Shown piece by piece: positions 1 to 53,693 of a stretch of 64,000 nucleotides of DNA (within the stretch, counting starts at the first letter, position 1; every line of letters starts with the position of its first letter). Source of the DNA: Ulota crispa (Eukaryota; Streptophyta; Bryopsida; Orthotrichales; Orthotrichaceae); assembly GCA_963920765.1 (NCBI GenBank), contig OY987242.1, positions 28,730,002 to 28,794,001 on the forward strand, read 5' to 3'. The position numbers and the translations under genes were made by a program. The notes beneath the pieces are model-generated. The model did no database searches. It saw nothing but the letters and a program-made list of their open reading frames with translations, and was not told the origin of the DNA.

Positions 1-610
1 CACATAATTGGGCACCAAATTGTGTTGTTGCAGGGAGTTTCGATCCAGCTCTAGCGCTTACCGTTAACGTATTCTCGCAAGTAAGCTTTTCGCAAACTCC
101 TGTTAGTTTTTGAACATAAACCTTCGTACAGCGTTTCTCGTTATTTGGTAGCCATGCTTTTTCAGGACTGCAATGTATTTCTTTAGTTTTCAAGTGAAAC
201 TGTTAGTCAGCAGCATCGATCACAGGTGCCGTCGGGTAGCCGTTTCCATAATCTTCGTTTAGGTGGGCGGAGATTCACACCAAATCACCAGCTTAGATTC
301 ATCAAAGCCCGGTGTTCATCTGCTGCTCAAACCAGGTGAAGGCAGATTCCCGAGCTCCCAACGCAACGAAAAGCACGCGATAGTTTGTAGAGTATCAGCT
401 CCACTCTACAACAATCTGGAACATAACAGAACGCTGATCATGCACATGAACAGGAGAGCTGCGTAGAGCACCGACTGTATGTTTTTCCAGCCAGAAAATT
501 CCCTGGAATCGAATGAGGGGCTTGGAACCCATGGATTCCAGGGATTTCCTAATGCCCAGTTGTAAGCTGCAGGAAGCGTGAGTCCACGAGGTCGGAAGGA
601 GGCCCGAGAC
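1..610. other. Upstream region of the F-box gene
   Basis: This is the 5' flank and probable 5' UTR of the F-box gene that starts at 611. The open frames in it are short, overlap on both strands and resemble nothing I know. The frame open from 578 begins with GTG, so it is not a eukaryotic start. I see no clear TATA box. Confidence 0.5.
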
Positions 611-1864
611 ATGGCCGCCACAAGCCAGGCGACGGTGGTCATGGACGACGTGTGGAAGTCCTTTCCGCCGGAGCTGCATGAAAACGTTCTCCGATTCGTT
701 CCCCTTCCCGAGCTCTGCCGCTTACGGGCCGTCTCCCCTGCTTGGAACCACCTCATCAAGCAGCTCAAGTTTGCGGACACGGCGACGTACATTCTCAGGA
801 CGACCATCCTCGTCGAATTATGTCTTGGCAAACGCAAAGCCGAGATCACGCGGCAGTTGAAGCACGGCTGGAGGATCTACGACCCCAGCGTACGCCAATC
901 CTTCCCGCTGGACATGCGCTTCCTCTACCAAGGTCTGGAGGGCCGGTTCGGCCCCCCAGATTACTGCAAAACCATGGCGGCCGACCGGGGCTTCGTCGCC
1001 GTTGTCTGGATCTCTCCCACGGGGAACTACGGCGAGGTCATGCGGGTTGTCAACCCGGTCACCGGATCCTTCATCGACATTCCACCACTCTACCAGACAA
1101 CGCGCGCGGCATACTACGACCCGGCGGTGCTGATGGTGGTCGAAGAGGACCACTCGGCCTTCACGCTCTACGTCGTGCAGGAATGGGACGTGGAGCCTCC
1201 TCAGAGCAGGCGCGCCTTCCGCCTCGACTCCCGAGTGCGCGAGTGGCAGGAGTTCCCGCAGCCGTCTGCCAAGCTCAACCCATCCAGCATCGTCAAGCTG
1301 GGCTCCACCCTCTTCGCCCTCTTCTGGGACATGAAGAAGGGAGCGCGGTACCGGCCCCGGCTCCTGGCCCTCGACGCGGTGCGCGGCGCCTGGACGGACA
1401 CGACCGTCAAGCTGCCCGCGGGCGTCGCCGTTCCGCGCCTGGCGACCGCGCTCGGGCGCCTGTTCTTCGTCGGGTTCGCAGGGAACGGAATTCGGCGCGG
1501 AATCCAGCTCTTGGAGGTGGACGCGGCGTCGGCGAAGTGCACCGCCGTCGCCTCCCTGGACGACGAAGAAGACGATTTCGCGTACGAGGTGTACTGGCTG
1601 ACGGTCCGCAAGACGCGAGTCGGTGTGCGCGCTGACGTCGTGGCCATGGGGTTGGGGCACCATATCGTCGTGTCGTCCGTGACGGGGGCCATGGCGGCGT
1701 ACGATCTGGCGAACGCGAAGTGGTGCGCGTGGGCCGCGGGCGACGGGATCGAGGATCACATGCTCCTCAGTGGGACGCCCTGTGGGACGTTTGCCACGGC
1801 CATGAGCCTCACTTCCAGTCCCGTGCCCGGGGCGCCCGCGACGATCAACCAGGCAGCGCGGTAG
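611..1864 (+). CDS. F-box protein, intact, intronless
   Basis: The product is a 417-residue probable substrate adaptor of an SCF ubiquitin ligase. I chose the ATG at 611 (MAATSQATVVMDD); the same frame is open upstream to 578 but only with a GTG. An F-box-like segment lies at about residues 14-55 (VWKSFPPELHENVLRFVPLP, then ELCRLRAVSPAWNHL). The rest resembles the plant F-box-associated beta-propeller type, with spaced segments such as VNPVTGSFIDIPPL, FRLDSRVREWQEFPQP and IVKLGSTLFALFWD. The gene is much richer in GC than its surroundings. It converges on the pyruvate decarboxylase gene, with only 270 bp between stop codons. A decayed paralogue lies at 16409-18061 on the other strand and shares the VW-FP-ELH-NVL and VKLGSTLF-LFWD segments. 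The substrate is unknown. The F-box call is firm; the propeller subtype is inferred. Confidence 0.85.
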   Translation: MAATSQATVVMDDVWKSFPPELHENVLRFVPLPELCRLRAVSPAWNHLIKQLKFADTATYILRTTILVELCLGKRKAEITRQLKHGWRIYDPSVRQSFPLDMRFLYQGLEGRFGPPDYCKTMAADRGFVAVVWISPTGNYGEVMRVVNPVTGSFIDIPPLYQTTRAAYYDPAVLMVVEEDHSAFTLYVVQEWDVEPPQSRRAFRLDSRVREWQEFPQPSAKLNPSSIVKLGSTLFALFWDMKKGARYRPRLLALDAVRGAWTDTTVKLPAGVAVPRLATALGRLFFVGFAGNGIRRGIQLLEVDAASAKCTAVASLDDEEDDFAYEVYWLTVRKTRVGVRADVVAMGLGHHIVVSSVTGAMAAYDLANAKWCAWAAGDGIEDHMLLSGTPCGTFATAMSLTSSPVPGAPATINQAAR

Positions 1865-1881
1865 AGAGTGAAGGATCTCTT

Positions 1882-1904
1882 AGCTGGGCTGGGCTGGGCT
1901 GGGC
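1882..1904. repeat. (GGGCT)n short tandem repeat
   Basis: About four copies of a GGGCT unit lie just after the F-box stop codon, in its 3' UTR. Confidence 0.8.
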
Positions 1905-2025
1905 GACGACTAGCGGGTCAATTCGCTTGATCGGTCTCCTCAGATCCCATACATACGGCACTCACGCAGTTCTTTCCAAAAGTAGATCGAGATGGTACCG
2001 AACAATACTGTATTCCCGTCTCTGC

Positions 2026-2031
2026 AATAAA
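2026..2031 (+). terminator. Candidate poly(A) signal of the F-box gene
   Basis: A canonical AATAAA lies 162 bases after the stop codon of the F-box gene. It is only about 100 bp from the stop codon of the convergent pyruvate decarboxylase gene, so the two 3' UTRs probably overlap. Confidence 0.5.
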
Positions 2032-2134
2032 AATTTCAATTCACGTGTATGTGACCCTGTCCAGAGCCACTGAATAGAGCATACATATATGTACACGAGT
2101 GTCATGGACTGCCCTGTTTCTATTGCGGCTGTGT

Positions 2135-5100
2135 CTATTGCGGGTTGGGTGGTCGACTGTTGGCTGTCGCCACGCGAGATCCCCATTCCAGCAGCTCCTT
2201 GCTGGTGTCGTCCTTGTGGAGGATGACTTCTATGAAGCAGAGGCTGTCCTTTTTGGCCTGGGCCGTCGCGATCGCCTCCTCCAGCTCCTCCTCCGTTCGC
2301 ACCTATAAATTCACAACCGGAGTATTCAGTCCGAGTGTTCTCTTGTTGTCCACGAGGGCGCTGCTCTCTCTTGTGTGGTAACACGATTGTTTGCCAGTCA
2401 TTCCAGGCGAAGGGGGCGTTTTCACAGAGGGGGGGATACGAACCAATTGTATCCAGCGCTCACGGTCGATCAATGTCAATGTCAAACGATCCAGCAGTGC
2501 GTGAGCACAGCGTACCTTGCACGTCCACAGGTTGCCTTCGCCGTTGGCGAACGCCTCCACCACCGCCGTGTAGTTCCAGTTCTTGATGACGTTGTAGGGG
2601 CCATCGTGAATCTCTACTTCGATGGTGTAGCCGCCGTTGTTGAGCAAGAAGATGACGCTCTTCTGTCCGTGGCCAATCATCGTCGACATGTCCTGCGCTG
2701 TCACCTGTGACAATATTGCCACAACCCAAGCTCTTCAATAAAACCGCCAGCATGCTTGCGACGGAAAAATGTTGGAGGGACATTCGAGACTGCTCAACGA
2801 GGCTATTTCGACACCGAAGGTCGTAGAACGTGATCGGCACCCGTCCGTGAAGGCATAATTAGACATTCAACTACACCTCATCAAGCATAGCGACCTGATT
2901 TGTTCGATAACATTGGCAACACCGACGTCACCGGACTCACGTGCCACAAAAGACTGAGACGCTAGCCGGGGATGCCGCAGAGAGTTGGCAAGGCGGGGAG
3001 GGGCGTCATACCTGAAAACTGCCATCGCCGATGCAGGCTATCACGCGTTTGTCTTTGGCGCCTTGCGCGTAGCCGAGAGTGGCTCCCACCGCCCAGCCGA
3101 TGGAGCCGTACTGCATTTGGAACTCGTAGGTGCAACCCTCGGGGAGCCTGAGCTTTTGGCAATTAAACCACGCGTCTCCCGTCTCGGCGATGACGGCCGA
3201 GTCCTTCGTCAGCATGCCCTGCCAACAGGTAATAGTTTAAGAACAGCCAGAGACAAGGCTGGCGAGAAAGTCACATCAGGAAAATTGGTCTCATACAGCA
3301 GGCAGTACAGGATGAGAAGCGAATTCTCTAACCCCTCAAGTGCGAAATTAAGATATAGAAGTTCTAGTTTAGAAGTTGATCGTTGCATATAATTACCCTC
3401 AGAACGTTTTTTTTTTTGCTCAAACATGTTGGTTGTTATTTTGATTTTGTAAGCATTTCCTAGAGTTTTCTACATGATTTGCTTCATTTCAAAATCCAGC
3501 AGGAAATGGCGGTATCCATGGTTAGGGATTTGATCAGGTGGGGTTAAGTAAACCTGAAGTGGTCCAATGTTCATATTGAATAAAGTGCTTTAAAGGTGAG
3601 GTACTATCCAAATCACTCTTCATTCATTCGAAGTAATATTTGAATCGTCAAAAAGCAAACCTTGCTATACAACCAGCTTGATGAATATGAAGTAAATAAT
3701 GGAATACCAAAAATAATTGGTATCTTTTTAAATGAATTGGACATTAAAGGACGAGTAAGTATTCATGCAGAGAGATAATTTTCGTGCTTGGGGTTACCTG
3801 AATGTGCTTGAAAAGGTTAACAGTTCTGAGAGGCTGGCCTGGCATTTGCTTCAGAGCAACGCTGGGAGGTACGTACATGCGCGAGTAGTTATCAAATGCA
3901 GTAGTGTTTTTCTTCACCTTTTTCGCAAGCAATTCCAGAAAGTCCCTCATCAGCACACAACCAAAGGACGGCCCGTTTCCAATCTTCACTCGGTCGGGCT
4001 CCAAGCTGATAATGTTATCCTTTTTGATGAGCAGCGAGTATCCAACAGAGCTGCAAAAATATTTGCAAAAACTTAAATACCTCCAGTTTCAGGAGCATCA
4101 ACATACAATCAAAATTTGCAAGAGTTCCATAAGAAGGCCTCAAAGTGCGATGTGCAGCTACCTGTAATCATTGAAGACTGGCCCCGCAAATAGATACTTG
4201 TCAGCAGATTCAACGATCTCAGCTGTGTACGTCGAGCTTACAGCACCCCAGTAAGTGCCAATGAAACTGGGGTGACTCTCTGGAAAATGACCCTTCGCCG
4301 AAGGCATGACTGCCACTGGATATCCAGACGCCGTGGCGAACTCTTCAAACGCTTCAATTGCTTTCGAGAAACGCAGCTGAGGGCCAGCTATGAGGACGGG
4401 CTTGACGCTTCCATTTAAGAGCTCACTCACTGTATCTACGGCCGCCTCCAAGCTCAACCGGTTGGTCGTCGTGTTTCCAATTCCATAGAGCCTGAACCCA
4501 TTTCCATGCACAGGCCACGTGTACCCTGCTTAGGTAACGCCAATATGACCTGATTATGATACCCTCCCTAAACGTAACACCTCTAAATCTGGCACGATGA
4601 GTACACACTGATTTGTTAAATGTATATCATCTCAACATCAGAAACTGTATCAGGTTTAGCCCATCTACAAAAAAAGAAGTTTGAACTCTTATAAATTTTG
4701 CATTTGGTACCATAATAGTGCATTCTCTGATACATTAGAATCCTCTCTGATTTTTGATACTCAAAACGTTGGTAATTCTGATGATATTTACTCGTTCAGC
4801 ACTTGAAGTGTAGTGTTTTGGTGTGGATCACTTACTCGGTAGAAACTTCAGAGGAGACACTTTCATAATTCAACCTTGTCGACCAACACTAAAGAACAAA
4901 GCCATCAATTGGTAAGGGGTGTAGCACCTTCGGGGATCGGGACCCTGAGTCAAGGAGTATGGAAGAGGAACCGCTCTGAAGGATGGATGTGGAATCGCAG
5001 GCAGGTTGCAGCTGATACTGATGTACACGGGCTTGCTCTTTTCAAGCGCAGTAGAAATGGCTTTGTCCACGAGCTCATGCGCGTCGTCCAATGATTGTAT

Positions 5101-6405
5101 TACCACCTATTGTCCACATTGGAACCATGCGATTAGAAAAACAATCAGGCATAAACTCATACTCCAAAGAAGCGAATCCCTAAACATGTTCTGGAGTGCA
5201 CTGGTAAATCTCTTCGCCATCCATATTCTACCTTAATCTCTTAAAACAAGTAAAATGGATGATTTAATGGAGAAAACCCTACCCATCCAAACTACTTGCA
5301 CCCTGACAATTCAAATCCTTAATCCAATAATACATTGAAGATGCACAACAAAAGATAAAAACACTAAAAGATGACAATCAGTTCATCTCACGTTTGTTCA
5401 CAATTCTACTAGCACCTCCTAGAAATGAGTGGATTTGATGAAACAATGACAATGCAGTATAACATAACAACCTAAGTGCAACTCTACAAACATAACTCTT
5501 CAATCAAGTCCAGAATTGAAGTTACACGATATGAGATACTACGGTAGGAACCTGAGAGTAAAACTCAAACTTCTAACACGAACGATACATTGTTGAGTTT
5601 CATCCTCACGTTGATCTTAACAAATGTATCAAACATCAGGAAGAAAGTTTTACTGTCGCCCCTTCGAGAATGTGCACGTCGTCTAACAGAAGCAAGAAAA
5701 AACGAGGTAGGATGATCTAGTGGCATATGAAGATGCCCAAAACCTAATAAAACATTCAAAGCTTATTGACAAAAATCTAAAAATTCGTTTGCGAGGTGTT
5801 TTCATTACGGTCAATGCGTGTTTTCCGTCCCACAATGGAAACAAACGCCCATTTCTTCAGAAAAACATAAGTAGAAAAATCAAAGAAGGATTTCTAGTAC
5901 ACTAGCCAAATGCAAGGATAACTGAAAAAATGTCGATGTGACGGTGCCCGAGTATGCATACCTGGGCACAAGTGACTTGCTGAAAACACCGGTACTCTTG
6001 ACCGAAATCGGCGATGCCAATCGTGTGATGAAGGATGCGGTTCGTCCCGTAATCGTTGGAATTCGGCCCACCAACAAGGCAAATCACGGGGAGATTCTCA
6101 CTGTACGCGCCCGCGATGGCATTGATCACACTCAAACCCCCCACGGTGAACGTCACGGCGCAGGCCCCAATGCCGTTGGCGCGCGCGTATCCGTCGGCAG
6201 CGTAACCCGCGTTCAATTCATTGCAACACCCCACGAGATTAAGACCGGGCTCCGCAAGCAAGTGGTCGAGTAGAATGAGGTTGAAGTCCCCGGGCACCGT
6301 GAACACGTCGCGGACACCCACTTCCACAAGGCGGGATGCAATGTAGCCGCCCAGCGTCTTTGGACCCGCCGACGCGGCTTCCTTCGCTTTGTTTGACCCT
6401 CCCAT
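2135..6405 (-). CDS. PDC: Pyruvate decarboxylase, seven exons
   Basis: This cytosolic thiamine-diphosphate enzyme decarboxylates pyruvate to acetaldehyde, the first step of ethanol fermentation. Proposed join on the minus strand: 5962-6405, 4928-5106, 4162-4491, 3798-4050, 3012-3218, 2516-2704, 2135-2302. Every junction is GT...AG and phases match, giving 589 residues, the usual plant length. The start is the ATG at 6405; the frame is open to 6417 only with a TTG. The catalytic Glu is near residue 63 ([16 protein letters not shown]) and the His pair at 126-127 (RILHHTIG). The ThDP/Mg motif runs from GDG (466-468) to NN (493-494), 24 residues apart, and is split by intron 5. The protein ends with [10 protein letters not shown] and a proline-rich tail, typical of plant PDC. 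Exon 2 could end a few bases differently, because residues 200-215 are poorly conserved. The gene appears intact. Confidence 0.95.
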
Positions 6406-7237
6406 TTTTCTTCTCAATGGCCGTCACTACTATGGCCACACCTGTCCAGCCAATTTCAGTGAGCCCACGAGATTTGAGCGATGCATGTCATCAGATCAGC
6501 CCTCCTCATGCAAACTCACAGAAACAAAAAAATCCTCGAATCTCTACACAGATGTACCACAAACGTACAAGACCTCTCCAAAATACTGACTCATGCAAAA
6601 TCCCCTCCGTTCGACACTCAGAAGAAACGTAAGCTGCAGTCAGGCCGCAGCAGCAGCGAGCGGACAATTCCGAAATTCAGCTAATTCATCTCGCCTTCCT
6701 CGCAAGCTTGCTGCCGCTCCGCACTCTTCTGGGTCGAGAAATTTAAAAAATCTCGACAAAAAACACCTCAATCTAATCGAATTCCTACACAACCCCAACC
6801 CGAAACACGAGCCATTACAGCTACGATCCCACATCAACGAACCAGAATCTCACCTCTAACGGCGCACTGGGACGGACGTAGCACCCAGCTTAAGGAATCC
6901 ACCACGCACCTCGCTGCGAGATCAAACGCCCCGGCTAGCAACAGCAACGTCGGGTGTGAACGCACCAGAGCCACCACCACAGATGAGAATTGTTGGAGTT
7001 GATGCCTGTCTGCAGAAGTTTGGAGACGGGGAAAGTTCACAGGCTGCTACCGAAGGCGATGGCGCGGAAGAGAATCCTTGATTGTCACGCCCAGCGAGCG
7101 AGCGAGCGAGCGAAGAGCGGGATGGTCGTGATGCGAGGGTGACGAAGCGGCCAACCAGAAAGTGCAGAAGCATTCCCAAAGCTGGCGTAGGTGCCGTGCT
7201 GACTTGGCAGCAGCCGAAGCACCTTGCCACCTGCTCC
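6406..7237 (-). promoter_or_regulatory. Upstream region and probable 5' UTR of PDC
   Basis: This stretch before the PDC start is GC-rich from about 6850 to 7237 and then turns AT-rich. On the minus strand it has a plausible splice donor at 6854/6853 (TTAGAG then GTGAG) and possible acceptors close to the ATG, so a non-coding first exon is likely. Positions 6775-7237 recur in opposite orientation at 15393-15820. Open frames here are short and unlike known proteins. I recognise no anaerobic-response element. Confidence 0.5.
7094..7114. repeat. (GCGA)n microsatellite
   Basis: About five copies of GCGA lie in the GC-rich region upstream of PDC. The equivalent part of the inverted copy near 15.5 kb lacks this run. 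Confidence 0.8.
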
Positions 7238-7329
7238 CGCCCGCGGCCCGTCCCAGCAGTCCAGCACCAGTCCTTTTTGCTCCGTTAGCCCTCGCTCCCT
7301 CAGGCCAGGGTTTAATTTTTGTTTCTGTC

Positions 7330-7745
7330 AGGGTAGAGCGACCCGCACCCCAGAATGCAGGCAGGTAAGGAAATTATAGCTAAAATTGGATCAAATGAAT
7401 GTTATGAAGGTTTTTTTGTTTGCATTGTAGATGAGCAATAAGAGGCCTCTGTGTGCATTTAGGAATGGAGGAATTGTGGAGGGACATAGATGCATTGGCC
7501 TATATCAAGTATTAAAAAACAAATGTGGCGGCAAGAGGCCAAAAAAAAGCCCTAAATGTTATATAAATGTTCATCCAAAAAAATCTAATATTAACTACTT
7601 TCATCCAAAATTTGACAAATTGAGATTTTGCTAGAGTAGAATATGGCGATTTCATCCAAATTTTCATGCATATTTCTTAATGTAACAGTAGCTAGCTCAC
7701 TTTCAAGGTAAGATTTAGGCAAAAATTGTCAACAAATTAAAGCCT
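7330..7745. repeat. Dispersed repeat relic (family with 46627-46872 and 57722-58201)
   Basis: It shares scattered segments with the loop of the 46-47 kb inverted repeat (a CACCCCA-AATGCA-GCAGGTAAG start and GCAATTTCATCCA-like text) and, in reverse orientation, with the insertion at 57722-58201. No coding capacity is visible. The boundaries are approximate. Confidence 0.45.
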
Positions 7746-7850
7746 AGGGCCTAGGCCCCACCTTTGCAATTTGTAGTCCCGGCATTAATTTGGGCCAAAC
7801 TTGTCGTCCTATGGGCCTTTGTATATGAGGACGCGGGGCTCATTCACAAT

Positions 7851-8182
7851 GGGGAAATTATAAATAGGGGCACACAAACAAAAAAAATCTATTATGAATA
7901 GGGGCACAGTTTCAAAATACCTACAAATAGAGGCTCAATTTCAAAAAAAATTTATAGATTTTTGAAAAATTTTGGTTTGGACATTGGTTGATTTAGAACT
8001 TCATACTAAATGATAGCTAACTTCCAAAACACTAAGAAGCTTGTTCAAATCAAACTTCAATAAAAAAAAAGTTGTAAATGGGCTTTGAAATTGTGCCTCT
8101 ATTTGTAAATTTTTTGAAATTGTGCCCTTATTTATAATTGTTTTTTTGTTTCTGTTTTTTTGCCCCTATTTGTAATTTCCCC
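7851..8182. mobile_element. Foldback MITE, GGGGAAATTA ends
   Basis: It starts GGGGAAATTATAAATAGGGG and ends with a near inverse complement. Further inward repeats (ATAGGGGCA and its complement) give a hairpin-like element of 332 bp. The flanks are near-identical 9-mers, ATTCACAAT on the left and ATTAACAAT on the right, as expected of a 9-bp target duplication of the Mutator type. A related copy lies at 33109-33550. No coding capacity. Confidence 0.7.
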
Positions 8183-8191
8183 ATTAACAAT

Positions 8192-10218
8192 TCAGGAGAT
8201 CAACATTTAGGCCAAATTTTGATTGGGCCCTAATACAAACCCTTATATCTAATTGATGGCCCAATTTTGAGCTTTTTGCCATTCAATTGGTTCATTTAAC
8301 CCCTCTTTGCCTAAGGCCCAAAGAGAGTTTAGGGCATCCTTGCTTTTCAAGTGTTGTAAGTCCCAATGTCACTAGAGTATGAAAATCTCAACTTGTACAA
8401 TCTTGTGGTGTGCATGTTGTAGATGATGTGGATCAAATTTGGGGACATTTGACCACATAAATTGGAAGATTTTAATGTTTTAGTGCAAATAAAAGATGCT
8501 GAAATTTTCCTAAAAATACTTTTGGAGGTGAAATATCATTTCTAAACCTACTCAAATGAAAAAAAAAATAGTAAAGTGATTCAAACCAGTATACAAACAC
8601 ATTGGTGAAAGAAAATATCAATTAATATACTCACTTTTTTGCAACATTGTTTTGAAATGTCAAAAAACAATGAAAAAACCAGCAAAAATTCACATCTATT
8701 GCTAACCCTCCTTCTACTAAAATGCTTCTCATTCACTCATAACTTCTTGGATTGATATGAAATTTTAACTATAATAACTAGAATAGTACAAGCAACTTTT
8801 CTAATAACAAATATTGAAAGCAAAGTTTTTATGAAGAAGTTATAAGCCACCAAAGTTCACTATAATGCATAAATGTGTGGATTTTGAACTTTGAGGTGCT
8901 CCCAAACATTCAAGAAGACTTAGATTGATGTGAAAATCTTACCACAACTACTAGACTTTAAGGGGAACAAAACCCAACAAAGTTTATTGAAAACAAACAT
9001 TTGATGAAAAAGATACAAGCCCCCAAAGTTGCAGCCATCACAATGCAATGTGGTGAACTCAAATTGACCTTTGAACATTGAATGGCTTTTGCAAACTCAA
9101 TATGTATTAAATTAATTTGAAAATTCTATCACATGAATTGACTAGTATGCACAACTTTGACAACAAATTTTACTAGATTTTGAAAATTAAGGCAAAACTT
9201 GCAGCACTTCAAGTTGCAAAAATAGATTGATGGAGGACAAAAATTGTCCCCTTAGGCGATGAGGGATTAAGTGATTTTAAAGTTGGGACAAAAATTTGGC
9301 TTTATAGAGTCCTAGACATAAAATCATAGTCCTCACTCAAATCCCTTCCACACCCTAGATTTTTTATCAAATCTAAAAGTAATTACATATTTGAAAAGCC
9401 TGGTAAGGGGGACAAAATGTGTTAGAATTTGAGGAGTAGATTATTCCTAATCCATGCCAAATGCAATTTTGTACAAACAAATATGCCATATTTGTCAACT
9501 TTTATCAACACTACTAACATCTTTGTGGCTTTTAAATGCCCTTTAGAACTTGAAATTGTCTCAACTCAAACAAGCATGTTATACATTGAGAACAAACTGA
9601 GAACATGTTGGTGGTAAATTGTTGATAAATTTGTATTGATTTTAAAAGCATTTAAATCATGACTTGATGTTTTTTTCAATTTTTTTCTAATGCTTCACCT
9701 AATTAGAATTACTTCAAAGTTTAATACAATTTGTCCTTTTTCTAATTTTTCCAAATATGTACCCAGATATGTAGTTAGTGTTAGATTTGATAAAATGTTG
9801 ATTATTGTAGATTAGGTCACAATCTTTGTCAACTTTTTGTATATTCAACCATGGTTTCTCTTGTAGTGCGCTATTAAGTTGGATTTGTAGAATCTCTCCA
9901 CCAATTGATGAAATCCTACTAAGATCTATAGCTTTAGCATCATTGCTTAGACAATTGACACTCTTCCGTAGTTCACATGTATCAATTGGAATTCTAACTC
10001 CTCAACTTTTGCAAGATTGCAGTTGCCCTGCTTGGTTAAATGAATTTTCAATTATATCATTCCCTTGTTTTTGAAATTGCACTAAGGTCCCATTTATGTA
10101 TAAACACAATTCCAAGCTAGTTCGCCAATGTAGTTATCAATATTCTATGATTGAAACAAGCACTTTCTTATCTGGAATTTTAGTTCTCGACCGGAGTCCA
10201 CACTCCCCCCCCATTGTA
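8192..10218. other. AT-rich intergenic DNA
   Basis: No gene, long open frame or clear TIR pair is visible. The text reads like old degenerate transposon sequence with many A and T runs. The open frames at 9429-9617 and 9826-10074 are short and unlike known proteins. Confidence 0.5.
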
Positions 10219-10593
10219 TTATGACAAGGGAATTGATATGTGTGCCACACCCTTTGATCTATCGTACCACACCCCGGGGTAAATTTTAGATTTCTACCAT
10301 CAAAAAGCTGCATTTGAGAATTTGAAATTTAGTTTTGGACTCAGAGACCATAATTTAGTCTACAACCGTAAAAAAGTTGCAATTCAACAACACCCAATGA
10401 AAAAGTTGAACTAAGGAAAAAAGTATTATTTTTACTTTTGTTTGTAAAAAAAGATAAGCTTTGTCATTAAGTGTTGTTGAATTGCAACTTTTTTAATGGT
10501 TCTAGACTAAATCATGGTCTTTGAGTCCAAATCTAAATTCTAAATTCTAAAATTCAGCTTTATGATGGTAGAAATCTAAAATTTACCTCAAGC

Positions 10594-10845
10594 ATTAGCA
10601 AAATTTTGAGCCCTACAAAATGCCCCTAACTCCACTTGAGAGATGTGCATATAGAGAAAAAAATTGCTATTTTTGACTGTCAGAATTTGCCATTTTTGAC
10701 ATCCGCAGTGTGTCATATGATGTGCCACGGCGGTTTTAGTATTATTATTATTATTATTATTATTATTTATTATTTTGTTCACCTTCGTTATGTAGAGCGG
10801 CACAATTTTTTAGGGGCCCTCTAGAGGGTTCAAAATTTTGCTAAT
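10594..10845. mobile_element. Small TIR element nested in the foldback MITE
   Basis: Its ends are ATTAGCAAAATTTTGA and the inverse, followed inward by CCCT. Copy 2 of the host MITE (34898-35306) has uninterrupted sequence at this point, which shows an insertion of about 250 bp. No convincing target duplication is visible, so the exact ends are uncertain. Confidence 0.6.
10741..10774. repeat. (ATT)n microsatellite
   Basis: About eleven ATT units with one interruption lie inside the nested element. Confidence 0.9.
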
Positions 10846-10901
10846 GGGTGTAGAACAGTAGTTCAAAGGGTGTGGTAGACATATCAATGCCCTTATCACA
10901 A

Positions 10902-11413
10902 TTACAAACACCAAGAAGCTTCAAAATTAATGCACAATGAGACAAACAGACTTCCTCTTCACACTCTTAATGACACATCCATCATTAAATGCCTAGCAAT
11001 CATGCATTACACAAAAGGTCAATTCTAAAACTATCACCTTATGCCACATGATGCAACAAAAAGAAATTGTAAGAAAATTAGGATACAATAGCTTCAAGAT
11101 GGTTTATGGTCATGATCTATGTAATGTACATACCCAATAAATGTTTCTACACAAAAAATGCACATGATGCCATTTACTATATAGATAATGCAAAATCAAA
11201 AGTCTAAAACAAATACCACTTATTGTAGACCCACTTGAACCAAAATTTATTTGCTTTATTACTAGCACCCAAAATAAGCATAGAAACAAACTTTAAGTGT
11301 CTAACAAAATTTGCTCAAAACATGAAACTAAAAAAAGAGCATGCAAACGACAATATTATCTCCAATGCCACCTTAGTGACGTCCTAGTCTAACCTCTTTC
11401 CTTGACAATTTGA
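10902..11413. other. AT-rich intergenic DNA
   Basis: No gene, paired repeat or open frame is visible. Confidence 0.4.
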
Positions 11414-13065
11414 AGAGCATCTCCACTAGTCCTGTCAAATGTAGACTCGGAAAAGCAGGTTTAGGGGGCCCTCACAAGTGAAATTGCCCAAATTGTGAAT
11501 GCAATCTCTAGCCGCTCAGCTTGGGACTAACGCGGTAAAGGATTTCTGGATAAGAGGGGTGGATTTAATGGTCGCACTTTGTGAAGGGGCAGTTTTTTTG
11601 GCTGCCATGCATGCAAGTGGGTCCGGCCCAGCTGCTGCACAAGCTCACTCATATCTAAACCCTAAACCGCCTTAACACACGGGATGCCTCTAAATATGAA
11701 TGAAATTGGAATTTTTGCAAGGGCTCTTTGCAAGCCCAATCACAAAGATAGTGCTCCAATGCTTAACATTGACAATAAACTAAACAGTCAATGCTCCTAT
11801 GCTTGGTTTTGAAACAAAAAAGAAAATTTGTATAATACAAGGCTTTGGGCTAAAACTTATAGAAATAACTTTTATGTAGCTAGATTTTAGGCTCACACTG
11901 CACAATAGTTTCAATAATACAAGGCCTAGTACTGAGAAACAAAAACATGATTGCTGTTGTAAGGGCTGGAAGTGATATGGAAGAAAAAAACAATGATACT
12001 ACACAGATACTGTCCTGAACCAAGTGAACTCTATGATAAAAAGTCTAGTACTGAGAATTAGAAGAGAACTCAATGCTGCAAGGAGTCGAGATCATTCTTA
12101 ACATAAAATTTCTATCATACTAAACCTGTATTGATGTAAACTTAGTGAACTTCTTGATACAAGGTCTGATATTGTGAATTGGAAGAGAACTCAATGCTGC
12201 AAGGGGTCGAGATCATTTTAAACTTAAAAAAGAATTCATACTACACTTGTACGGATAAAAATTGAGTCATGAATTGGGGCTCATTCTTAGCATAATTTTT
12301 TGATAACACTACACTTGTATGGATCAAAACCGAGTCAAGTTCATGATATAAGGTCTAGTGCTGACCATCATAAAAAAACTCAACACTGGAAGGGGTCGGG
12401 ATCATTCTAACGTAAAAAAAAAGTCATCCTACACCTATATTGACCTAAACTGAGTCAAGACCATGCTACAAGGTCTGATACTAACCATTATAAAGGAACT
12501 CGATGTTGCATGGCTTGGCGCTAGAAATCTCCAAATTCATCCACTTCAACGTTGCATTGTGATCTTTGATTGCAACACGACCTTGCTAATTGCTCTGCTT
12601 TGCTAGCGACTCTTGACAGTCGACTTCTCCCTCATCCACTCTGCAACCCTAATCTCTCCAATTTTTTACGTGGTTTTGCAAACCGTGCCCCTTTCCTCTG
12701 TGATTTGCCATTGAGCCTTCAACGCCGATGTGCAACCTAAGCCTTCTCCCTCCTCGTTGCAACATTGCACCTTAGTGACTTCAAAGGTTTTTTTGCAACT
12801 AGCTCAAGCTCCTCTGTCTTGCACCAAGAATAGCAGTTCCCCCGACATCATCGTGTCTGCGCAATCATCGCAACCTCAAAATAGTCCGTCAAACAAGCGC
12901 GCTATGTGAAGACAAAGACCCGCAGGGTGAGCATCCCGAGAGCCCTATTTGGCGAGGCTACGCCAAATATCTCCGCGAGCGCGTCACCGGTGGGGTTATG
13001 AAAAGTGAATAGTGCACGAAGGCCACGCTAAAAACCCATTTGAAGGGAACCGGTGGAGGTGCTCT
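11414..13065. mobile_element. Candidate non-autonomous element with GAGCATCTCCAC ends
   Basis: The left border reads AGAGCATCTCCACTAGT and the right border GGTGGAGGTGCTCT, a short imperfect inverted pair of a type common at plant DNA-transposon ends. No target duplication is evident. The interior holds a block of 120-bp tandem repeats and a GC-richer part (about 12580-12960) that could be captured host sequence. I see no open frame of note. Confidence 0.4.
11921..12520. repeat. Tandem repeats of about 120 bp
   Basis: Units carry AAGGTCTAGTACTGAGAA-like text, then GAACTCAATGCTGCAAGG and GGTCGAGATCATT. Anchors recur near 11921, 12041, 12161, 12350 and 12471, with a shortened unit near 12260. 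The divergence between units suggests an old array. Confidence 0.7.
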
Positions 13066-15392
13066 ACGATGAAAAAGAAATCTCTACACTTTAATGCATT
13101 CCTTGCGCAGTGATTGAAACTCACTTGTACTTTTTTCTATGGTAGGGACAATAGAAATTCAAACAAGTATGTACACAACATAGACAAGACTACCATCAAT
13201 GACCATTTCAAGACTTACCAACTTCATTATGACGTGGCCCCTATCAACGGCATAAAAGAGAATCTATACTAGTTTAGTTTGTGGCGCACTTGGTGCTTAT
13301 AATTGCTTGCAATTAATATTTAAATATCTCTATGATTACATAGTTTTTGAATTAAACAAGATTGATATGCTTGGCCAATTTCTCAAAGTTGTTAATTCTA
13401 TTCAATCTATGATATGAAACAACAAAATTACCAAAAAGTACAATTCAAGACAATGCAACTAAAATGAAAGTTTTTACACAAGTTTTGTAGCAATTTAAAT
13501 TCCAATTTTGTTATGACACTCATATCAAAACATAAAATATGAAGCTCCTAAGTAAATTGAGATGAAGAAGAGTTTGATCACCTTCACTCTAAGTGTTCAA
13601 ATAAAATAAAAAATTGAAACTCAATACAAAAAGTAAAAATCTTCACCAGTACTATCTTTATGGTTTATCAAAACTCATATCTTTTGTTTATTCAAATTTT
13701 GCACAAGAGTAGTTATTGCTTGAAAAATCTTTACATAGACTTTACCATGTATGTTTCACCATCACATGTCAACACCAAATAAAATTTGTGAGCTAAGGCA
13801 AGTCAGTCATAAAACTTCTCTAGATTGGACTCCCCATAGATTGGATGTTGACTTCATATAAGAATATTGTATAGTAGTATGAAAAACCACAAAAATAAAC
13901 AAAGATTCTTTTATTTGAATGAAAGCTTAATTGTGGTCATTGTCTCTATTTCATTTTACCTTTTTCTGTTTCTTAATGGCAAATGAGGTTGCTAATGTTA
14001 AAGGTTAGTAATCTTGTCTTGTTGCTAATACTTACTAATACTATCAGAATTAGCTGGAGGGCTAGAGCAGCTCAAAACAATGCTAAATGGGCTACAAGTT
14101 CAAAATTTCCATCATAATATTCACATTTCTGCATAAGGAAATAACTTTTGATAGAATTTTTGTTAAAATCACTAGAAGAAAATGTGCATTAAAAAACTAG
14201 TCTTAAACAACTGTAAACGTCCTAAACAATTGTAATTGAGTCATTGTGTAGTTTTTTAGGACATTTGTAGTTGTTACAAATTAGTCATTTAAGACACCTT
14301 TTTTCTAGTGATTTTGCCACATTCACAAATACTGCTTTTAATAACCACCAAATGAGGGTTCCCCATGGTAAACTTTCCAAAATTTCATTATTTCCTAGTC
14401 CAACTTCTTCCATTGTTTATAGAGCTTACAAACACAATACAAGTTATACAACAACTCAAAAGTAGAGCAATGAAAAAGAAAGATAAGAGGGCATTTGTAG
14501 TTGGAAAGTTTCAATGGTTGAGTTTAGATGTATTTAATAGTTGACACATGTTTCCACAAATTAGGTGCAAGATCTTCAACAAAGTCCACTATCAATGTAT
14601 TTGGCTGTTGGCTCCAATTTTTGCTACAAAACCCTCAAGGCCTCTTTATGTTTAGACCCAATTTCAACACCACCAAGATGAGTTAATGGAGTTGCTCAAA
14701 GCCTAACATTAAGACATCAATTGGGCCTAAAAACATTATACTAACCCTTCAACTTCTAAGCATGCTGCTATGACCAATACAACACAAGGTATTTTTTTTG
14801 TATTTGGGATAGATTCACACCATTACTACATTTGAGATCAACAAAGAAGTTGGAATATTGATCAATGCTATTCTAGGGAGCTATTTAAAATCCCAAATTA
14901 AAATTTCTTGTAGGTAGCAAATGCCAATTATATGGCAACATATATATAATGCCCTATGGTTAATTAAGGGTTAAGCCCTAGTCAGATTGTGAGTTGGACT
15001 AGGGCCTTCATTCAAAGCAACTTTTAGAACAAGACAATAGCTCCAATTTGATGCTAGACCTCTAAATCATAAAGCAAACTAAGGGTCTGAGAAGTGCAAA
15101 GGTTGATGCAATAAAAAGGACCAAAAATGAGCAATGTTAATAAAAAATTTTGAGCTTCAACTACTAAAACTCCAATTTTTCCATTTCATCCGACATTCCA
15201 CAAATAAGTTATGCACTGGCTATTTCCTTTGTCTATATTGTACTATATTATAATTTGGATTTCTTGAAAAATATAGTCAATGTTTTATCCGGTAATTTCA
15301 AGTTTCTACCGGTTTGTTTTGCTATTCCAAGTTCCAACTGGCTGACTTTGTATGGATAGCCGATTGTCCCGATCATTGTTGCCTAAGACTCT
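13066..15392. other. AT-rich intergenic DNA
   Basis: No gene is visible. It contains one small CACTA-like MITE (14170-14310). The open frame at 14271-14465 overlaps that MITE and resembles no protein I know. Confidence 0.45.
14170..14310. mobile_element. Small CACTA-like MITE
   Basis: It starts CACTAGAAGAAAA and ends TTTTTTCTAGTG, 141 bp in all, with AAACAATTGTAA-like internal repeats. The 3-bp flanks (AAT and ATT) are not identical, so no clean target duplication is seen. Confidence 0.5.
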
Positions 15393-15820
15393 AGGGCATG
15401 CTGGAGCAAGTGGCCAGGAGCTTTGGTTGCTGCCAAGTCATCATAGGCACGCCAGCTTTGGGAATGGTTCCTCGCTTGCAGTGTGGCTGCTTCTTCGCGC
15501 TTCATAGCGATCATGGTCTTTGCTAGCTATGAATAATGGTCCAAGATTCTCTCCTGCTTCATCACCTTTGGTTGTAGCCTGTAAACATTCTAGTCTCAAA
15601 GTTTTTGATTTGCAGACAAGCATTGTCACCAACAACTCTCCTTTGTGGTGGACTAGTGGCTATGGCGCGTTTGTTGTTGCTAGCCCGGGTGTTTGATCTC
15701 GTAGCCACGTGCCCCTGTGCGCTATTAGAGGTGACGTTTGGGTTTGGAGGGTGGAATCGGAGCTGCAATAGCTCACATTTTGGAGTGGGGATGTTCAAAG
15801 CTGGATTAGAGTGAGGTGTG
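15393..15820 (+). pseudogene. Inverted duplicate of the PDC upstream region
   Basis: This stretch matches the reverse complement of 6775-7237 collinearly. Shared exact blocks include CGCCAGCTTTGGGAATG (15450 against 7187), GCTGCCAAGTCA and GTTTGATCTCG (15691 against 6927). Differences are often CG in the PDC arm and TG or CA here, as expected of methylated-cytosine decay. The candidate donor TTAGAG/GTGA is kept. No PDC coding exon follows before the F-box pseudogene, so this is a relic of the 5' end of a lost second PDC copy. Confidence 0.75.
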
Positions 15821-16408
15821 TTTGAGGTGGATGTGTCCAGATAAGTCAAAATTTTCTTTGACTTGTAGTACAGAGAGGAAGCAATTTTTGCTGGAAGCTT
15901 ATTGCTAACGCAAGATGAATTAGCAGGTTTCCAAACACGCCCGCTTGCTGCTACTGCCTAATTACGGCTTGTATTCCTTTGAAGTGTCTAACTGAAGGGA
16001 ATTTGCACAAACATGACTGCAGTTTATGTTCCTTTGGAGTGTCAAATGGAAGAAAGTTTGCACAAATTAGTGTTTTGTAGAGGTCTTGTGCATTTGTGGT
16101 CCTCAACAAACCTACAATAAGATAATTATGGAAACATCATTATGGAATTTGCAAAAATTGAGTGATTGCTATGTTGTCATAGACAATTTTATCTGCAACT
16201 ATTTTCAACACGGTATCACTGCATGCAAGTGGGAAAAAACTATCATCAAGTAGAGAGAGTGGTATCAATCCAATACAAACAAAGAAAACTTTATTCACCA
16301 CCAAGCTGCTAGTTAGCTGATAATTGGTAGGAGAAAATTATGAGCAAGTAAAGAGAGAGTGGAATCAATCCAATACAAGCAAAGAAAACATTAAACATTA
16401 TTGAGCTG
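15821..16408. other. Gap where the second PDC body would lie
   Basis: By symmetry with 611-7237 this interval should hold the PDC coding exons of the duplicate. I see none of the PDC motifs in any frame. It has two loosely repeated segments (CCTTTGAAGTGTCTAACTGAAG near 15980 and CCTTTGGAGTGTCAAATGGAAG near 16030) and two copies of AGAGAGTGG-ATCAATCCAATACAA about 90 bp apart. Confidence 0.45.
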
Positions 16409-18061
16409 CTAGTTACCTAGCAATTTAGGGTCGACAAAGGGATGAAGGGTGAGAGTCATGCTCTGGGCAAACAACCCACACCAAGCCTCCAAGATATCAA
16501 CATGATTCTCTAGTAGCCTACTATTGACCCACTCCCTCTACCTAGAATTCAACAGATCATATGCCACCCTAGACCCTTTCAGAGATGACATAACTATGAA
16601 TCTGTCATATCCTTCCACCACAAAGTTGGCGCCCATAGCAATGCGTTCTTTGTAAATGGACAAGCAATCCGGCATGTTGCCAATTATATTGTTGTTGTCT
16701 ATGTCACTCACAGGGGCAATCACAGTGCAACTCCGTGCATCCACATCTATTGCACAGAGATTGATTTCATCATCCATAAACGCAACAAAGAACAGGCACC
16801 CAAGTGCAGTTGCAAGTTGGGGGATTTGGACATCACTTAGAAGCACCACTTCTGTGTCGCTCCACTCGCTGCGCGTTATGTCGTAGGCATAGAGCAGGAG
16901 CGGAGGTGGCACGTAGTGCTCAAAATCGATATGATCTAAATCCATATCTCTATCAACATTGTCCCAGAAGAGGGTGAAGAGGGTGGACCCCAGCTTGACG
17001 ACATGTGTTGGGTTGAACGTTGGAGGCGGCTGAGGAAACTCTTCCCAATATCCAGCTGTGGAGTCAAAGCAGAAAGAGCATTTGGTGATGATTTGATTGG
17101 TCTCAAAGTTGTTTTCATGGACAATGTAGAGCTCAAAGCTTGAGTAATTGTCTGCAACCACTAAGGACACTGCTAGATTCAAATAATGGGCATCAGTGTC
17201 CATTGTCAAGAAGAAGTCTGGAATCTCCACACAAGAACCAGTGATGGGATTGGCGACTTGCATGGCCTTGCAATCCTCCAATCTAGGAGAGGTCCACATG
17301 ATTGCAATGAAGCCCTTGTCAATCGCCATGGTTGCGCATTGATCTAGCTGCCAAAACCTATCACACACGCTTGCATAGATGAACTCCATGCTGAGCAAGT
17401 AGTTTTTATGGAAGTAGGGGTAGAATAACTCCCAGCAATGTCGCAAAATTTCTACAATGTCCAGGCCCTTGTCATCTCAACAAACACCAAAGTAGCCGTC
17501 CTCACAAGAGCCAATACCTAGTCCGACTATGTCAAACATTAGGAAATAGAAGACTTCCTTTGCACGTAAGTTGGTTGCAAAGCTGGGGCGTTTGGTGAGG
17601 TCATTCCAAGCATGGGACAATGTTTGGAAGCAACAGAGCTCCGGAATGGAGATCAATTGAAGAACATTCTTGTGTAACTCCGATGGAAAGTTTTGCCACA
17701 CCTCCTCCATGACCACTTCCTCCTTAGCTTCCATCTCTTTGTCCTCTTCCATCTCTTTGTCCTCAATTGATCCTTCCTCCCCCTCTCCATCCTGCTCCTC
17801 TCCTTCCTGATCCTCTTCTCCATCCTCCTCCTCCTTCTTTCCGCCCTCCTCCTCCTTCTTTCTGCCCTCCTCCTCTCCGTCCACCTCCTCTCCATCCACC
17901 TCCTTTGCATCCACCTCTTCTCCGTCCACCTCTTGCTCTCCATCCCCCTCCTCCTCTAACGTTAATTCTAAACCGCCTTCCCCAAATTGCCATTCCTCCG
18001 TCTCATCCTCAGATGTCTCCATCGCATGATCTTCCCATTTTGATTCACTGCTAGAATCCAT
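16409..18061 (-). pseudogene. F-box pseudogene, paralogue of 611-1864
   Basis: One frame runs from the ATG at 18061 (MDSSSESKW) to a TAG at 16409, interrupted by TGA at 17479-17477 and TAG at 16540-16538, with no frameshift. Homology to the intact F-box protein continues past both stops. After the first come ILRHCWELF and MAIDKGFIAIMW (intact copy MAADRGFVAVVW). After the second come REWVNSRLLENHVD and QSMTLTL. The F-box segment is VWQNFPSELHKNVLQLISIP. Upstream of it sits a Glu/Lys/Asp-rich stretch of about 100 residues, built from DGEEV-like repeats, that the intact paralogue lacks. Base composition is far more AT-rich than the paralogue. Most likely a decayed duplicate; an expressed truncated protein cannot be excluded. 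Confidence 0.75.
17700..17960. repeat. Purine-rich low-complexity repeat in the F-box pseudogene
   Basis: GAGGAGGAG-type simple repeats (CTCCTCCTC on the plus strand) encode the acidic insertion of the pseudogene. Slippage of this run probably created the extra N-terminal length. The proline-rich plus-strand frame across it is a by-product. Confidence 0.7.
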
Positions 18062-18540
18062 CACTCTTGGACTCTGGTAGCTGGATGCCTTGGTGCTTGC
18101 ATATCAAAACCCCCCAAGAAAACCAATGCACACTCCTTTGCTTAGCTTGGCGACTTCCACAGATCTCCACATTCGACAAGTAAATTTCATTACACTTCCA
18201 CCACCACAAAGACAGACTTTTCTACAAACCAAACGTGTCAAAGCTCATGTGCTGGAACAGCATGTGAAACTTTTGACTTCGGTAGTCTGTAGCATGGCAT
18301 GTTGATCTCTCCTATTCTTGTCCACCACTAACATGACGTTTGAAATAATTTTTGAATGTTCTGGTGGATGCATATTTTGCAAAATTTAAATTATTGGAGA
18401 TAGCTTTACTTGGAATCTATTATTACTCTTGCAATTGTGCTAATAGTGATTGAGGCTTAGTGAGTTTCAGCTTATCCACCTCTTAAATAAGCACTGCGTT
18501 TGATTGTGACTAACTAAAAGTACTTTGAGAAACCATTAAA
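18062..18540. other. Flank upstream of the F-box pseudogene
   Basis: No gene or repeat pair is visible. I could not trace clear homology to the region upstream of the intact F-box gene, so the duplication probably ends near the pseudogene start. Confidence 0.35.
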
Positions 18541-19266
18541 GGGTGATTGCAAGAAACACTTGTACTATTTTTTGTCCCCTTCACCTCCCGCATGTGCTTT
18601 TTGGGTTGTAACTTTTGCGCAACAAGTTCTTTTGAGCTGAAATTTCAAAAGAAGGTACATGTCATAGTTATAAACCTTCCCTAATTTTTGCATTTTGTTC
18701 AAAATTATTTTATTATTTTTGAACAGCCTCCAAATAGGTGACTACCTTGGCCATTTTGGGGGTTTTTAGTACTATTTTGGGTCCAAAAAAGCTTTTCTAG
18801 GGCTATTAATCAGAGTTGTTGTTTATAGAGCACACTTACATGCATTTATAGAAGGGTTTTGCAAAATTATAAATTCCATGGCATCTACATTGTCTCAAAG
18901 TGGGCACCCTATCTCCCTTCATTGGCAAAATACAAAGAAATTCCTCAACAAAGCAATTGTACCATGTGAATGTGTTTAATAGGTTCTCAAATGGTCAGTT
19001 TTTATTTTGTTTTTTTGAATTTTTTTCCTATTTTCTAAAAAGCAAGAAAGAAATTGGCTTTTTGTTGGTGATTTTGTTTTGCCCATAACTTTTAGAATAT
19101 TTCTAAGTCTGAATCTTCACGATTATGCTATTTTAAGTGCTTTACAAATTTTCCATATTTAATTTTTTTTTTTTTTAATTATTCCAAAAGCTCATAGTAC
19201 CACCTAGTACTACCAATACTAAGAGTGTTTGAGACAAAACTATGAAGTGTTTCTTGCAACTACCCT
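18541..19266. mobile_element. TIR element, ends GGGTGATTGCAAGAAACACTT
   Basis: The left end GGGTGATTGCAAGAAACACT has its inverse at the right end (AGTGTTTCTTGCAACTACCC), with two mismatches over about 21 bp. Both sides abut TAAA, a possible short target duplication. The interior of about 680 bp holds no meaningful open frame. Confidence 0.6.
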
Positions 19267-19560
19267 AAAAGGAGATGCCAAAAACAACAACCAATGCATC
19301 AAGTAGAGCTTACAAGCACAACTATGCTTATCTATACGTAATGATAAGAAATCCCCACTTACAAATTAAATGCTTTCATTCTTCCACAGAGGACATTAGG
19401 CAAAGGAATACTATAGACTACCATCCAAACATCAGTGATTTAGTGCCACCGTGCGGTTAACTAAACGTAACGAGACACACTCAACAATCATTAGGGTAAG
19501 AAAGAAAATAGCACTAGTTTTGACGCATGCACACATGACCAACACCAGCGTATTACTAAT
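19267..19560. other. AT-rich spacer before the tandem array
   Basis: No gene visible. The open frame at 19275-19460 resembles no protein I know. Confidence 0.35.
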
Positions 19561-21690
19561 CACAACACATCAAGAAATAGCAGAATAATGACGAATTAAA
19601 CATTGGATGATAAGTCTCTACACTTACTTCTCAGCAGGTTAGTGCACGACCACTTGATCACTGTAAAAGTATGAAAACCCCCTTTTTTACAAGGAAAAAC
19701 ACGGGCATGTCTCGAGACGGTCACTGTAAAATGTTAAGCAAGATATCCAGACTCAAGAAGCAAAGCAAGCAAGATAATTGAGACTCAATAGGCAAAGCAT
19801 TGCAGGAGAAGAAATGGGAACAAGTATTCTTACTACTAGTATCTCTAAAAAACAAGCAATCACTGTTTTCTTAAACAAGCTACTAGCAGGGTCCGCATGG
19901 AGAATTGAAAACAAATGTCACAAAATGAAGCATCATTGCTTAGAAGCGTATAATGCTTAAGAAAGAACACACAATACACACAAAGTCACATGCGCACTGC
20001 TACTCTAATCAAACAAGGTTATTTTTCTATAACAACACCACCTATACAAGCAGCTAGAGCATCTCTATACACCTAGAGCATCCAAGAAGAATTGTAAGTG
20101 TGTGTGTTGTGGCCAACGTATTAATTATCACAACACATCAAGAAATAGCAGAACAATGACGAATTAAACGCAAGATGATACATATCTACACTTACTTCTC
20201 CGCTAGTTTGTGCAAGAGCACTGTCTCGGTCACTATAAAAGAAGGATCTGCACACATAAAGCTACAAATTAGAAACACCAAAAAAATTTAAGCAAGATGG
20301 TCGAATGGCAAAGCATCCCAGGAGAAGAAAGGTGCTAAAACAGGAAGAAGCATTCTTACTTCTAGTATCTCTAAGAAACAAGCAATCAATATTTAAAAAA
20401 AACAAGCTACCAGCATGGTGCGCATGGGGAATTGAAAACAAATGTCAAGCAATGAAGCACCATTGCTTAGTAGCATTCAAGGCTTAATAAAGAACACACA
20501 ACACAAGCAGAGTCACATGCGCACTACCACTCTAATAGGACATAGTTATTTTGCTACTACAGTGCGAGTAGCTCAAGCAGTGCAAACATCTGCATACACC
20601 TAGAGTGTCCAAGGAGAATTGTAAGTGCATGTGGCCAACATCTTATTAATCACAACACACCAAGAAATAACATGCCATGCAATGACGAATTAAACACAGG
20701 ATGATACATCTCTACACTTACTTCTCCGCTAGTTAGTGCAAATCTGCAAGAGCACTTGGTCATTATAAAACTATGATCTGCGAACACAAAGCTACGGCTT
20801 AAACACACCTAAAAAAATTTAAGCATGATGATCGAGAGGCAAAGCGTCCCAGGTGAAGAAAGATGCTGAAATAAGAACAAGCATTCTTACTACTAGTATC
20901 TCTAAGAAGCTAACAAGCGATCCATACTTTTTCTAAACAAGCTATTAGCATGGTGCGCATGGGGAATTGAAAACAAATGTCACTAAACAAAGCACTGTTG
21001 CTTAGTTGCATTCAATGCTTAATAAAGAATACACAACAAACGCAGAGTCACATGCGCACTACTAGTCTAATGGGACATGATTATTTCGCTACGACATTGC
21101 CACCCATACAAGCAATACAAGCATCCACACACACCTAGAGCATCCAAGAAGAATTGTAAGCGCTTGTATCCAACGTCTTATTAATCACAACACATGAAGA
21201 AATAACAGAACAAGGACAAATTAAAAACAAGATGATACATCTCTATATTTACTTCTCCGCTAGTTAGCACAAGAGCCCTCGGTCATTGTAAAATTATGAT
21301 ATGCTAACACAAAGCTACAGATTAGAAACACCAAAAAAAATTATGCAAGAAGGATCAAAAGGCAAAGCATCTTAAAAGAAGAAAGATACTAAAATAAAAA
21401 CAAGCATTCCTACCACCAGTATCTCTAAGAAACAAGCAATCAATGTTTTTTTTTAAAAAGCTACCAGCATGGTGCGCATGAAGAATTGAAAATAAATGTC
21501 ACAAAACAAAGCACCATCCCTTAGTAGCATTCAATGCTCAATAAAGAATATACAACAAACGCAGAGTCACATGCGCACTACTACTCTAATGGGTCACAAT
21601 TATTTTGCTACGACATTGCCACCCATACAAGCAGCCAGAGCATCCGCACACACCTAGAGCATCCAAGAAGAATCATAAGCACCTGTGGTG
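19561..21690. repeat. Four tandem units of 520-570 bp
   Basis: Units start with CACAACACATCAAGAAATA at 19561, 20129, 20651 and 21186. Each carries in order a GACGAATTAAAC stretch, CTACACTTACTTCTCCGCTAG, CTTACTACTAGTATCTCTAAG, GGGGAATTGAAAACAAATGTCA, CAGAGTCACATGCGCACTAC and CACACACCTAGAGCATCCAA. The units differ by point changes and small indels. Short frames recur in units 1 and 2 (IENKCHKMKHHC and IENKCQAMKHHC) but are not kept in all units, so coding is unlikely. Confidence 0.85.
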
Positions 21691-53201: not shown

Positions 53202-53693
53202 TCTGCTCAAAATTGGATTTCCTGCCTCAAAACTGTCACATTCAAATGCAAACCCAACGTGTAGCTACTACCATTACTTCTACTTCCGACGGTGTTGGTG
53301 CGAGAGAGGTATAAGACGATGAGCGGGAGTGTTGCGCTCGTAAATCGATTGGCCCTCGAACACAGAACCCGACGCATAATCTATTGGATGCCCGTGGAGC
53401 CCACCCACACTCGCCAGTGGGCTCAGCGCATTGATGGCGATTCAGCAGAGTAGGACTGCTTGCTTGTCGTAGATTGCTTCTGTAGCAATTTTTCATTGTG
53501 GTGATTTTACGGCAGCACTGTGCGTTTCTAGAAATAGGACGCGGTACATTTCGCAAACGACTCTTCCAGTCTTCCTCGTACCCCAAGCGCAGCTCTTGTG
53601 CAAACGGATTGTTCTAGAAGGTCCTGACAAAAAAACAAAATATCCTGATTTTACAAAAACCTCAGAATTTTCGGAATTTCAAGGATAGGAGTT
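53202..53693 (-). promoter_or_regulatory. Upstream region of the F-box/kelch gene
   Basis: GC-richer 5' flank and probable 5' UTR. The minus-strand frame at 53242-53586 has no ATG-supported similarity to anything known. A foldback MITE begins about 490 bp upstream of the start codon. Confidence 0.45.

Follow-up and report, generated by a model that had tools for sequence, protein, structure and literature searches.

A mirrored copy of an F-box/putative pyruvate decarboxylase locus in Ulota crispa that lacks the decarboxylase gene

Fractionation is the partial loss of duplicated material after a segmental duplication. Among plant genes the F-box genes have been described as subject to rapid birth and death, with many pseudogenes, the young and the dead members leaning more on tandem duplication (PMC3030570). 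Here we describe a locus of Ulota crispa in which an F-box gene, a putative pyruvate decarboxylase gene (PDC) and the DNA upstream of PDC are followed by a mirror-image copy that holds the upstream DNA and an F-box gene only. It lies in a stretch of 64,000 nucleotides, the window, whose numbering is used throughout (contig OY987242.1, here C1, 28730002–28794001). Genome searches covered 274,817,297 bases in 157 contigs.

Copy 1 consists, in order, of F-box 1 (611–1864, forward strand), an intronless open frame of 417 amino acids; PDC (2135–6405, reverse strand), which is convergent with F-box 1 and present in this copy only; and the PDC upstream segment (6547–7255, reverse strand). Some 8 kb away on the same chromosome the order is reversed. 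The upstream segment (15385–16108, forward strand) comes first, then a junction of 330 bases (16109–16438) in the place taken in copy 1 by positions 1823–6546, 4.7 kb including PDC, and then F-box 2 (17728–16439, reverse strand). An earlier note on this DNA, made from the letters alone, had proposed such a mirrored arrangement of 611–7237 and 15393–18061, and both homologies do occur, over 611–7255 and 18061–15385, in the order and opposite orientation that it gave. Two homologous pieces, the upstream segment and the F-box gene, are thus mirrored, and neither is a dispersed repeat, the former having two places in the genome and the F-box genes being sisters. On sequence comparison, an inverted duplication is well supported.

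The reverse complement of 7255–6547 is collinear with 15385–16108 over 640 aligned columns, with 71.25% identity and 14 gaps; the differences comprise 104 transitions and 80 transversions. The Smith-Waterman score of 156 compares with 22.0 ± 2.3 for 200 dinucleotide shuffles, and with 17 and 21 for the reversed and same-strand controls, respectively. The collinearity reported earlier therefore stands, although its length of about 430 bp was an underestimate, and the exact block CGCCAGCTTTGGGAATG cited for it is part of an 18-base identical run. A genome search, which passes over simple repeats and words of very high frequency, placed segment 6775–7237 at two sites, itself and the mirror copy, with no third match. 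Neither a lack of significant alignment nor a multitude of unlinked copies, which the note had named as grounds for dropping its proposal, was seen. That the matches represent a dispersed repeat or chance similarity is so improbable as to be negligible: the upstream score is far beyond shuffles, the F-box pair matches at E 5e-76, and within the sensitivity of the genome search we regard this explanation as refuted for both homologies. What speaks for it is that one more mirrored element, outside both F-box genes, is truly dispersed. This third candidate (C1:28727624–28728374, left of the window, against window 18536–19269, 79.6% identity) is an element of about 735 bp with inverted ends; with the window copy as query, the genome search returned 1745 first-look candidates, of which 40 were scored, and at least 42 matches; most are about 90% identical. 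Since the element is dispersed genome-wide it was dropped and not counted as an extension of the duplication, and we take its mirrored position on the outer sides of the two F-box genes to be a coincidence. Rfam, at gathering thresholds, gave no match in the upstream segment. An alifold scan for RNA structure with column shuffling (z +0.7 to −6.4, both strands) was left unused because such shuffles break up gap blocks.

F-box 1 has 25 genomic matches: itself, F-box 2 as the top non-self match [40%, E 4.7e-76], a locus at C1:31.52 Mb [2.7e-37], and others, on contig C3 and elsewhere, at 1e-15 or weaker. By tblastn the two neighbours are 36% identical over residues 5–404 of 417 [5e-84]. A tree was built from 14 proteins. 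Besides the pair it takes in 12 of the 18 other loci fetched, those whose open frame reaches 350 amino acids or more; five further matches had no locus. F-box 1 and F-box 2 are sisters in the tree with 100% ultrafast bootstrap, on a stem of 1.20 and with tips of 0.79 and 0.82. Within the same fetched set the best partner of F-box 2 is F-box 1 (276 bits), the next scoring 159. The F-box domain of F-box 1 scores 34.2 bits (Pfam cut-off 20.5) and is followed by a KIB1-4 beta-propeller match [PF03478] which, at 23.8 bits, falls below its cut-off of 27.4; no KIB1-4 match was found in the F-box 2 part up to E = 1. Six relatives of F-box 1 are clustered at about 3.15–3.28 Mb of contig C3, two of them with in-frame stops in the matched stretch. 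Another F-box-type gene may lie at 52008–53264 of the window (reverse strand), where a 418-amino-acid open frame carries Kelch repeats (106.8 bits) together with a match to the F-box of 20.0 bits, just below the cut-off of 20.5.

The PDC gene of copy 1 is intact and comprises seven open exon pieces, from a start codon at 6405–6403 to a stop at 2135–2137. The N, M and C domains of TPP-dependent enzymes were found in its open exons, and from this family make-up we take it to be a pyruvate decarboxylase gene. Its exon 1 has five matches in the genome: this gene, three at 75–84% and a distant one at 27%. Searches around the three other PDC loci revealed no homologue of F-box 1 (20 kb around each, E up to 1), nor any upstream DNA resembling that of this gene at E below 0.5, and the next F-box relative, at C1:31.52 Mb, shares the F-box gene only, without the upstream segment. 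The linkage of F-box and PDC-upstream DNA is thus, as far as searched, special to these two neighbouring copies.

The earlier statement that the PDC exons are missing from the mirror copy is borne out, the junction holding no trace of PDC above chance. One comparison with the whole copy-1 interval gave a score of 30 (z 3.25), which the best of 50 shuffles also reached and which we count as no evidence. The stretch 16100–16440 matches only itself in the genome, and 16109–16438 contains an imperfect tandem pair of about 92 bp. Since no remnant was found in the junction, the loss of PDC is something that we infer: the PDC body was likely deleted from copy 2 after copying, rather than absent from it originally. 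It is unlikely that copy 2 never possessed PDC, the gene having been left out at duplication or having reached copy 1 afterwards. The junction without a remnant is in keeping with such an original absence, as is the abrupt end of the upstream homology about 140 bp short of the PDC start codon; on the other hand, the shared segment sits immediately in front of PDC, where a promoter and 5' leader would be expected, and a clean deletion would give an identical picture. The data of one genome are compatible with deletion after copying, with copying that omitted PDC and with PDC having reached copy 1 later.

The earlier note predicted that synonymous divergence of the F-box pair would equal the divergence of the upstream segment, and at face value this fails: the rates of nonsynonymous (dN) and synonymous (dS) substitution in the F-box pair are 0.50–0.54 and 1.26–1.76 by three methods, and the Kimura two-parameter (K80) distance upstream is 0.37, or 0.30 outside CpG. 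Transversions are likewise rarer upstream (80/640, 0.125) than at the first, second and third F-box codon positions (0.196, 0.168 and 0.253; p 0.002, 0.054 and 3e-7). To control for bias from the alignment, mutations were simulated on the upstream segment and the products aligned anew, with 60 runs per rate; the observed identity was reached in none of 60 runs at each of four F-box rates and in 12 of 60 at the segment's own rate. Identity along the upstream segment is not significantly clumped (longest run p 0.32), and so does not point to constraint. All of this would suit an F-box pair that is the older inverted pair, with the upstream segment copied, or made uniform through gene conversion of one inverted arm by the other, at a later time, which we nevertheless consider rather unlikely. 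A second copying event would need to hit the collinear place in the proper orientation, and the gap narrows at four-fold sites outside CpG, where a strict rule gives 16 differences in 53 sites (p 0.32) and a relaxed one 27 in 78 (p 0.053), compared with 128 in 529 upstream. Non-CpG third and first positions stay above upstream (121/267, p 2.6e-9; 110/291, p 5.5e-5), and second positions do not (87/315, p 0.29). Furthermore, F-box dS is inflated because the two genes drifted towards opposite base compositions, and this drift would account for part of the excess. Given the small gap at the four-fold sites a single event remains tenable, and we regard it as likely. The single duplication put forward earlier thus stands as regards inversion, order and orientation; equal age of its pieces fails at face value and is nearly concordant at non-CpG four-fold sites. 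One event with some constraint on the upstream segment fits the data, with constraint, gene conversion and two ages as possible sources of the discordance.

F-box 2 carries two in-frame stops, TGA at 17477–17479 and TAG at 16538–16540, as previously described, and no frameshift in the frame aligned with F-box 1. Being homologous to an intact gene and interrupted by premature stops, it has the features of an F-box pseudogene, and its loss of function may be presumed. From its first ATG it has in addition an acidic, repetitive N-terminal extension (17729–18061, reverse strand) with no counterpart in F-box 1. In a codon-blind DNA alignment, all eight gaps of the F-box pair are multiples of three in length, compared with four of 14 in the upstream pair, and changes unique to one or the other protein number 44 against 39, an equal pace (chi-square 0.30), F-box 2 having changed no faster than F-box 1. 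Together with two stops and no frameshift as the lesions seen, this suggests that F-box 2 was probably kept under protein-level constraint, like F-box 1, for most of its history, and that its inactivation looks recent. We think it quite unlikely that F-box 2 still works, whether by way of a truncated product that stops at the TGA and holds the F-box alone or of a spliced one that skips this stop. The F-box domain ahead of the TGA does pass the Pfam cut-off (23.2 vs 20.5 bits), 194 amino acids are encoded between the first ATG and the TGA, and 21 in-frame GT-AG pairs (60–198 nt) span the stop. Any such intron, however, would cut out sequence that aligns with F-box 1, both F-box 1 and the C1:31.52 Mb locus have a single open frame over the same stretch, the second stop (16538) lies downstream, and F-box 2 has the lowest CpG observed/expected ratio of the 14 members compared.

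The two copies also differ in composition. For the upstream segment the CpG observed/expected ratio is 1.0 in copy 1 and 0.46 in copy 2, for the F-box gene 1.16 and about 0.39–0.40, and for the spacer 0.33; TG/CA ratios in copy 2 are 1.34 and 1.44. In 1-kb steps CpG ranges from 0.67 to 1.16 over copy 1 (1–8000) and from 0.35 to 0.49 over copy 2 (15001–18000), the latter being like most of the surroundings, to which the spacer step at 12001 (0.74) is an exception. Of 46 aligned CpGs of the copy-1 upstream segment, copy 2 has TG or CA in place of 21 and retains seven as CG; conversely, four of the 16 copy-2 CpGs are TG or CA in copy 1. G+C at third codon positions is 0.85 in F-box 1, the highest of the 14 relatives, and 0.55 in F-box 2. 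When changes were polarised with the C1:31.52 Mb locus as outgroup, which left 178 unresolved, the 163 changes assigned to F-box 1 included 95 from A/T to G/C, and the 139 assigned to F-box 2 included 86 from G/C to A/T. Just such a CpG-poor, TG/CA-rich composition would be expected of copy 2 had its cytosines long been methylated. One might go further and imagine that removal of the PDC body left an orphan PDC promoter, some 330 bp from the 3' end of the convergent F-box 2, which drives antisense RNA through that gene; sense and antisense RNA together would trigger RNA-directed methylation, of which the CpG depletion and the stops of copy 2 would be the scar. Continued promoter use would then be the reason why the upstream segment has diverged slowly. 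We hold this to be highly unlikely. If the orphan segment were indeed still a promoter, gene loss would be linked to the silencing of a convergent neighbour.

On balance we consider it probable, though well short of certain, that this is an old local inverted duplication whose second copy lost, or never received, the PDC body, with late inactivation of F-box 2 and CpG depletion of that copy. A segment of F-box gene, PDC and PDC upstream DNA would have been copied locally, in inverted orientation, long ago. Copy 1 would have retained all of its pieces, and in copy 2 the upstream segment would have come to lie about 330 bp from the convergent F-box 2, directed towards the 3' end of that gene. 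With its acidic N-terminal repeat, F-box 2 would have been long constrained as a protein before gaining its two stops, while copy 2 turned CpG-poor and TG/CA-rich as in long-methylated DNA and F-box 1 gained G+C. Several observations weigh against this history. The best blastn match of the junction to PDC has E 0.046 over 11 bases, the level of chance; beyond the outer ends of both copies neither side shows homology; the two homologous pieces differ in divergence at face value, the upstream segment being less diverged than the F-box codon positions; constraint upstream should give clumped identity, and none is seen (p 0.15); and low CpG alone is no proof of silencing, since a ratio of 0.52 also occurs in exon 1 of a different PDC gene (C8:20.59 Mb).

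Between the copies the spacer (7256–15384) is for the most part rich in A+T and poor in CpG and contains palindromes and tandem repeats, and a search of it for homology between the copies beyond the upstream segments found none. The outer flanks of the upstream segments and the 5' flanks of the F-box genes likewise gave no homology above shuffles. Elsewhere the window contains a tandem array at 19545–21688 (units of roughly 0.5 kb, 72–77% identical), an inverted repeat at 46008–46574/46875–47443 (arms of about 570 bp, 89.5% identical, about 300 bp apart) and a U1 spliceosomal RNA gene at 49732–49890 (reverse strand; full-length Rfam match, 108.3 bits).

A literature search, which returned mostly listings and the openings of abstracts, found no published report of this locus or arrangement. 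As an instance of F-box birth and death through local duplication the locus is ordinary, as is the decay of its duplicate. It also offers a small natural experiment, in which upstream DNA has been retained in the absence of its gene, next to a sister copy with the opposite base composition. As in fractionation, one gene is kept in both copies and another in one copy only; unlike in fractionation, the promoter-side DNA of the missing gene persists, at 71% identity. As in the birth and death of plant F-box (FBX) genes and their pseudogenes (PMC3030570, PMC7829749), a local duplicate of a fast-evolving F-box gene has gained in-frame stops. In comparison with those FBX pseudogenes, methylation is here read from composition only. 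Unlike the FBX cases treated there, the present copy is inverted and includes the upstream DNA of an absent neighbour gene, and the pair is old rather than young.

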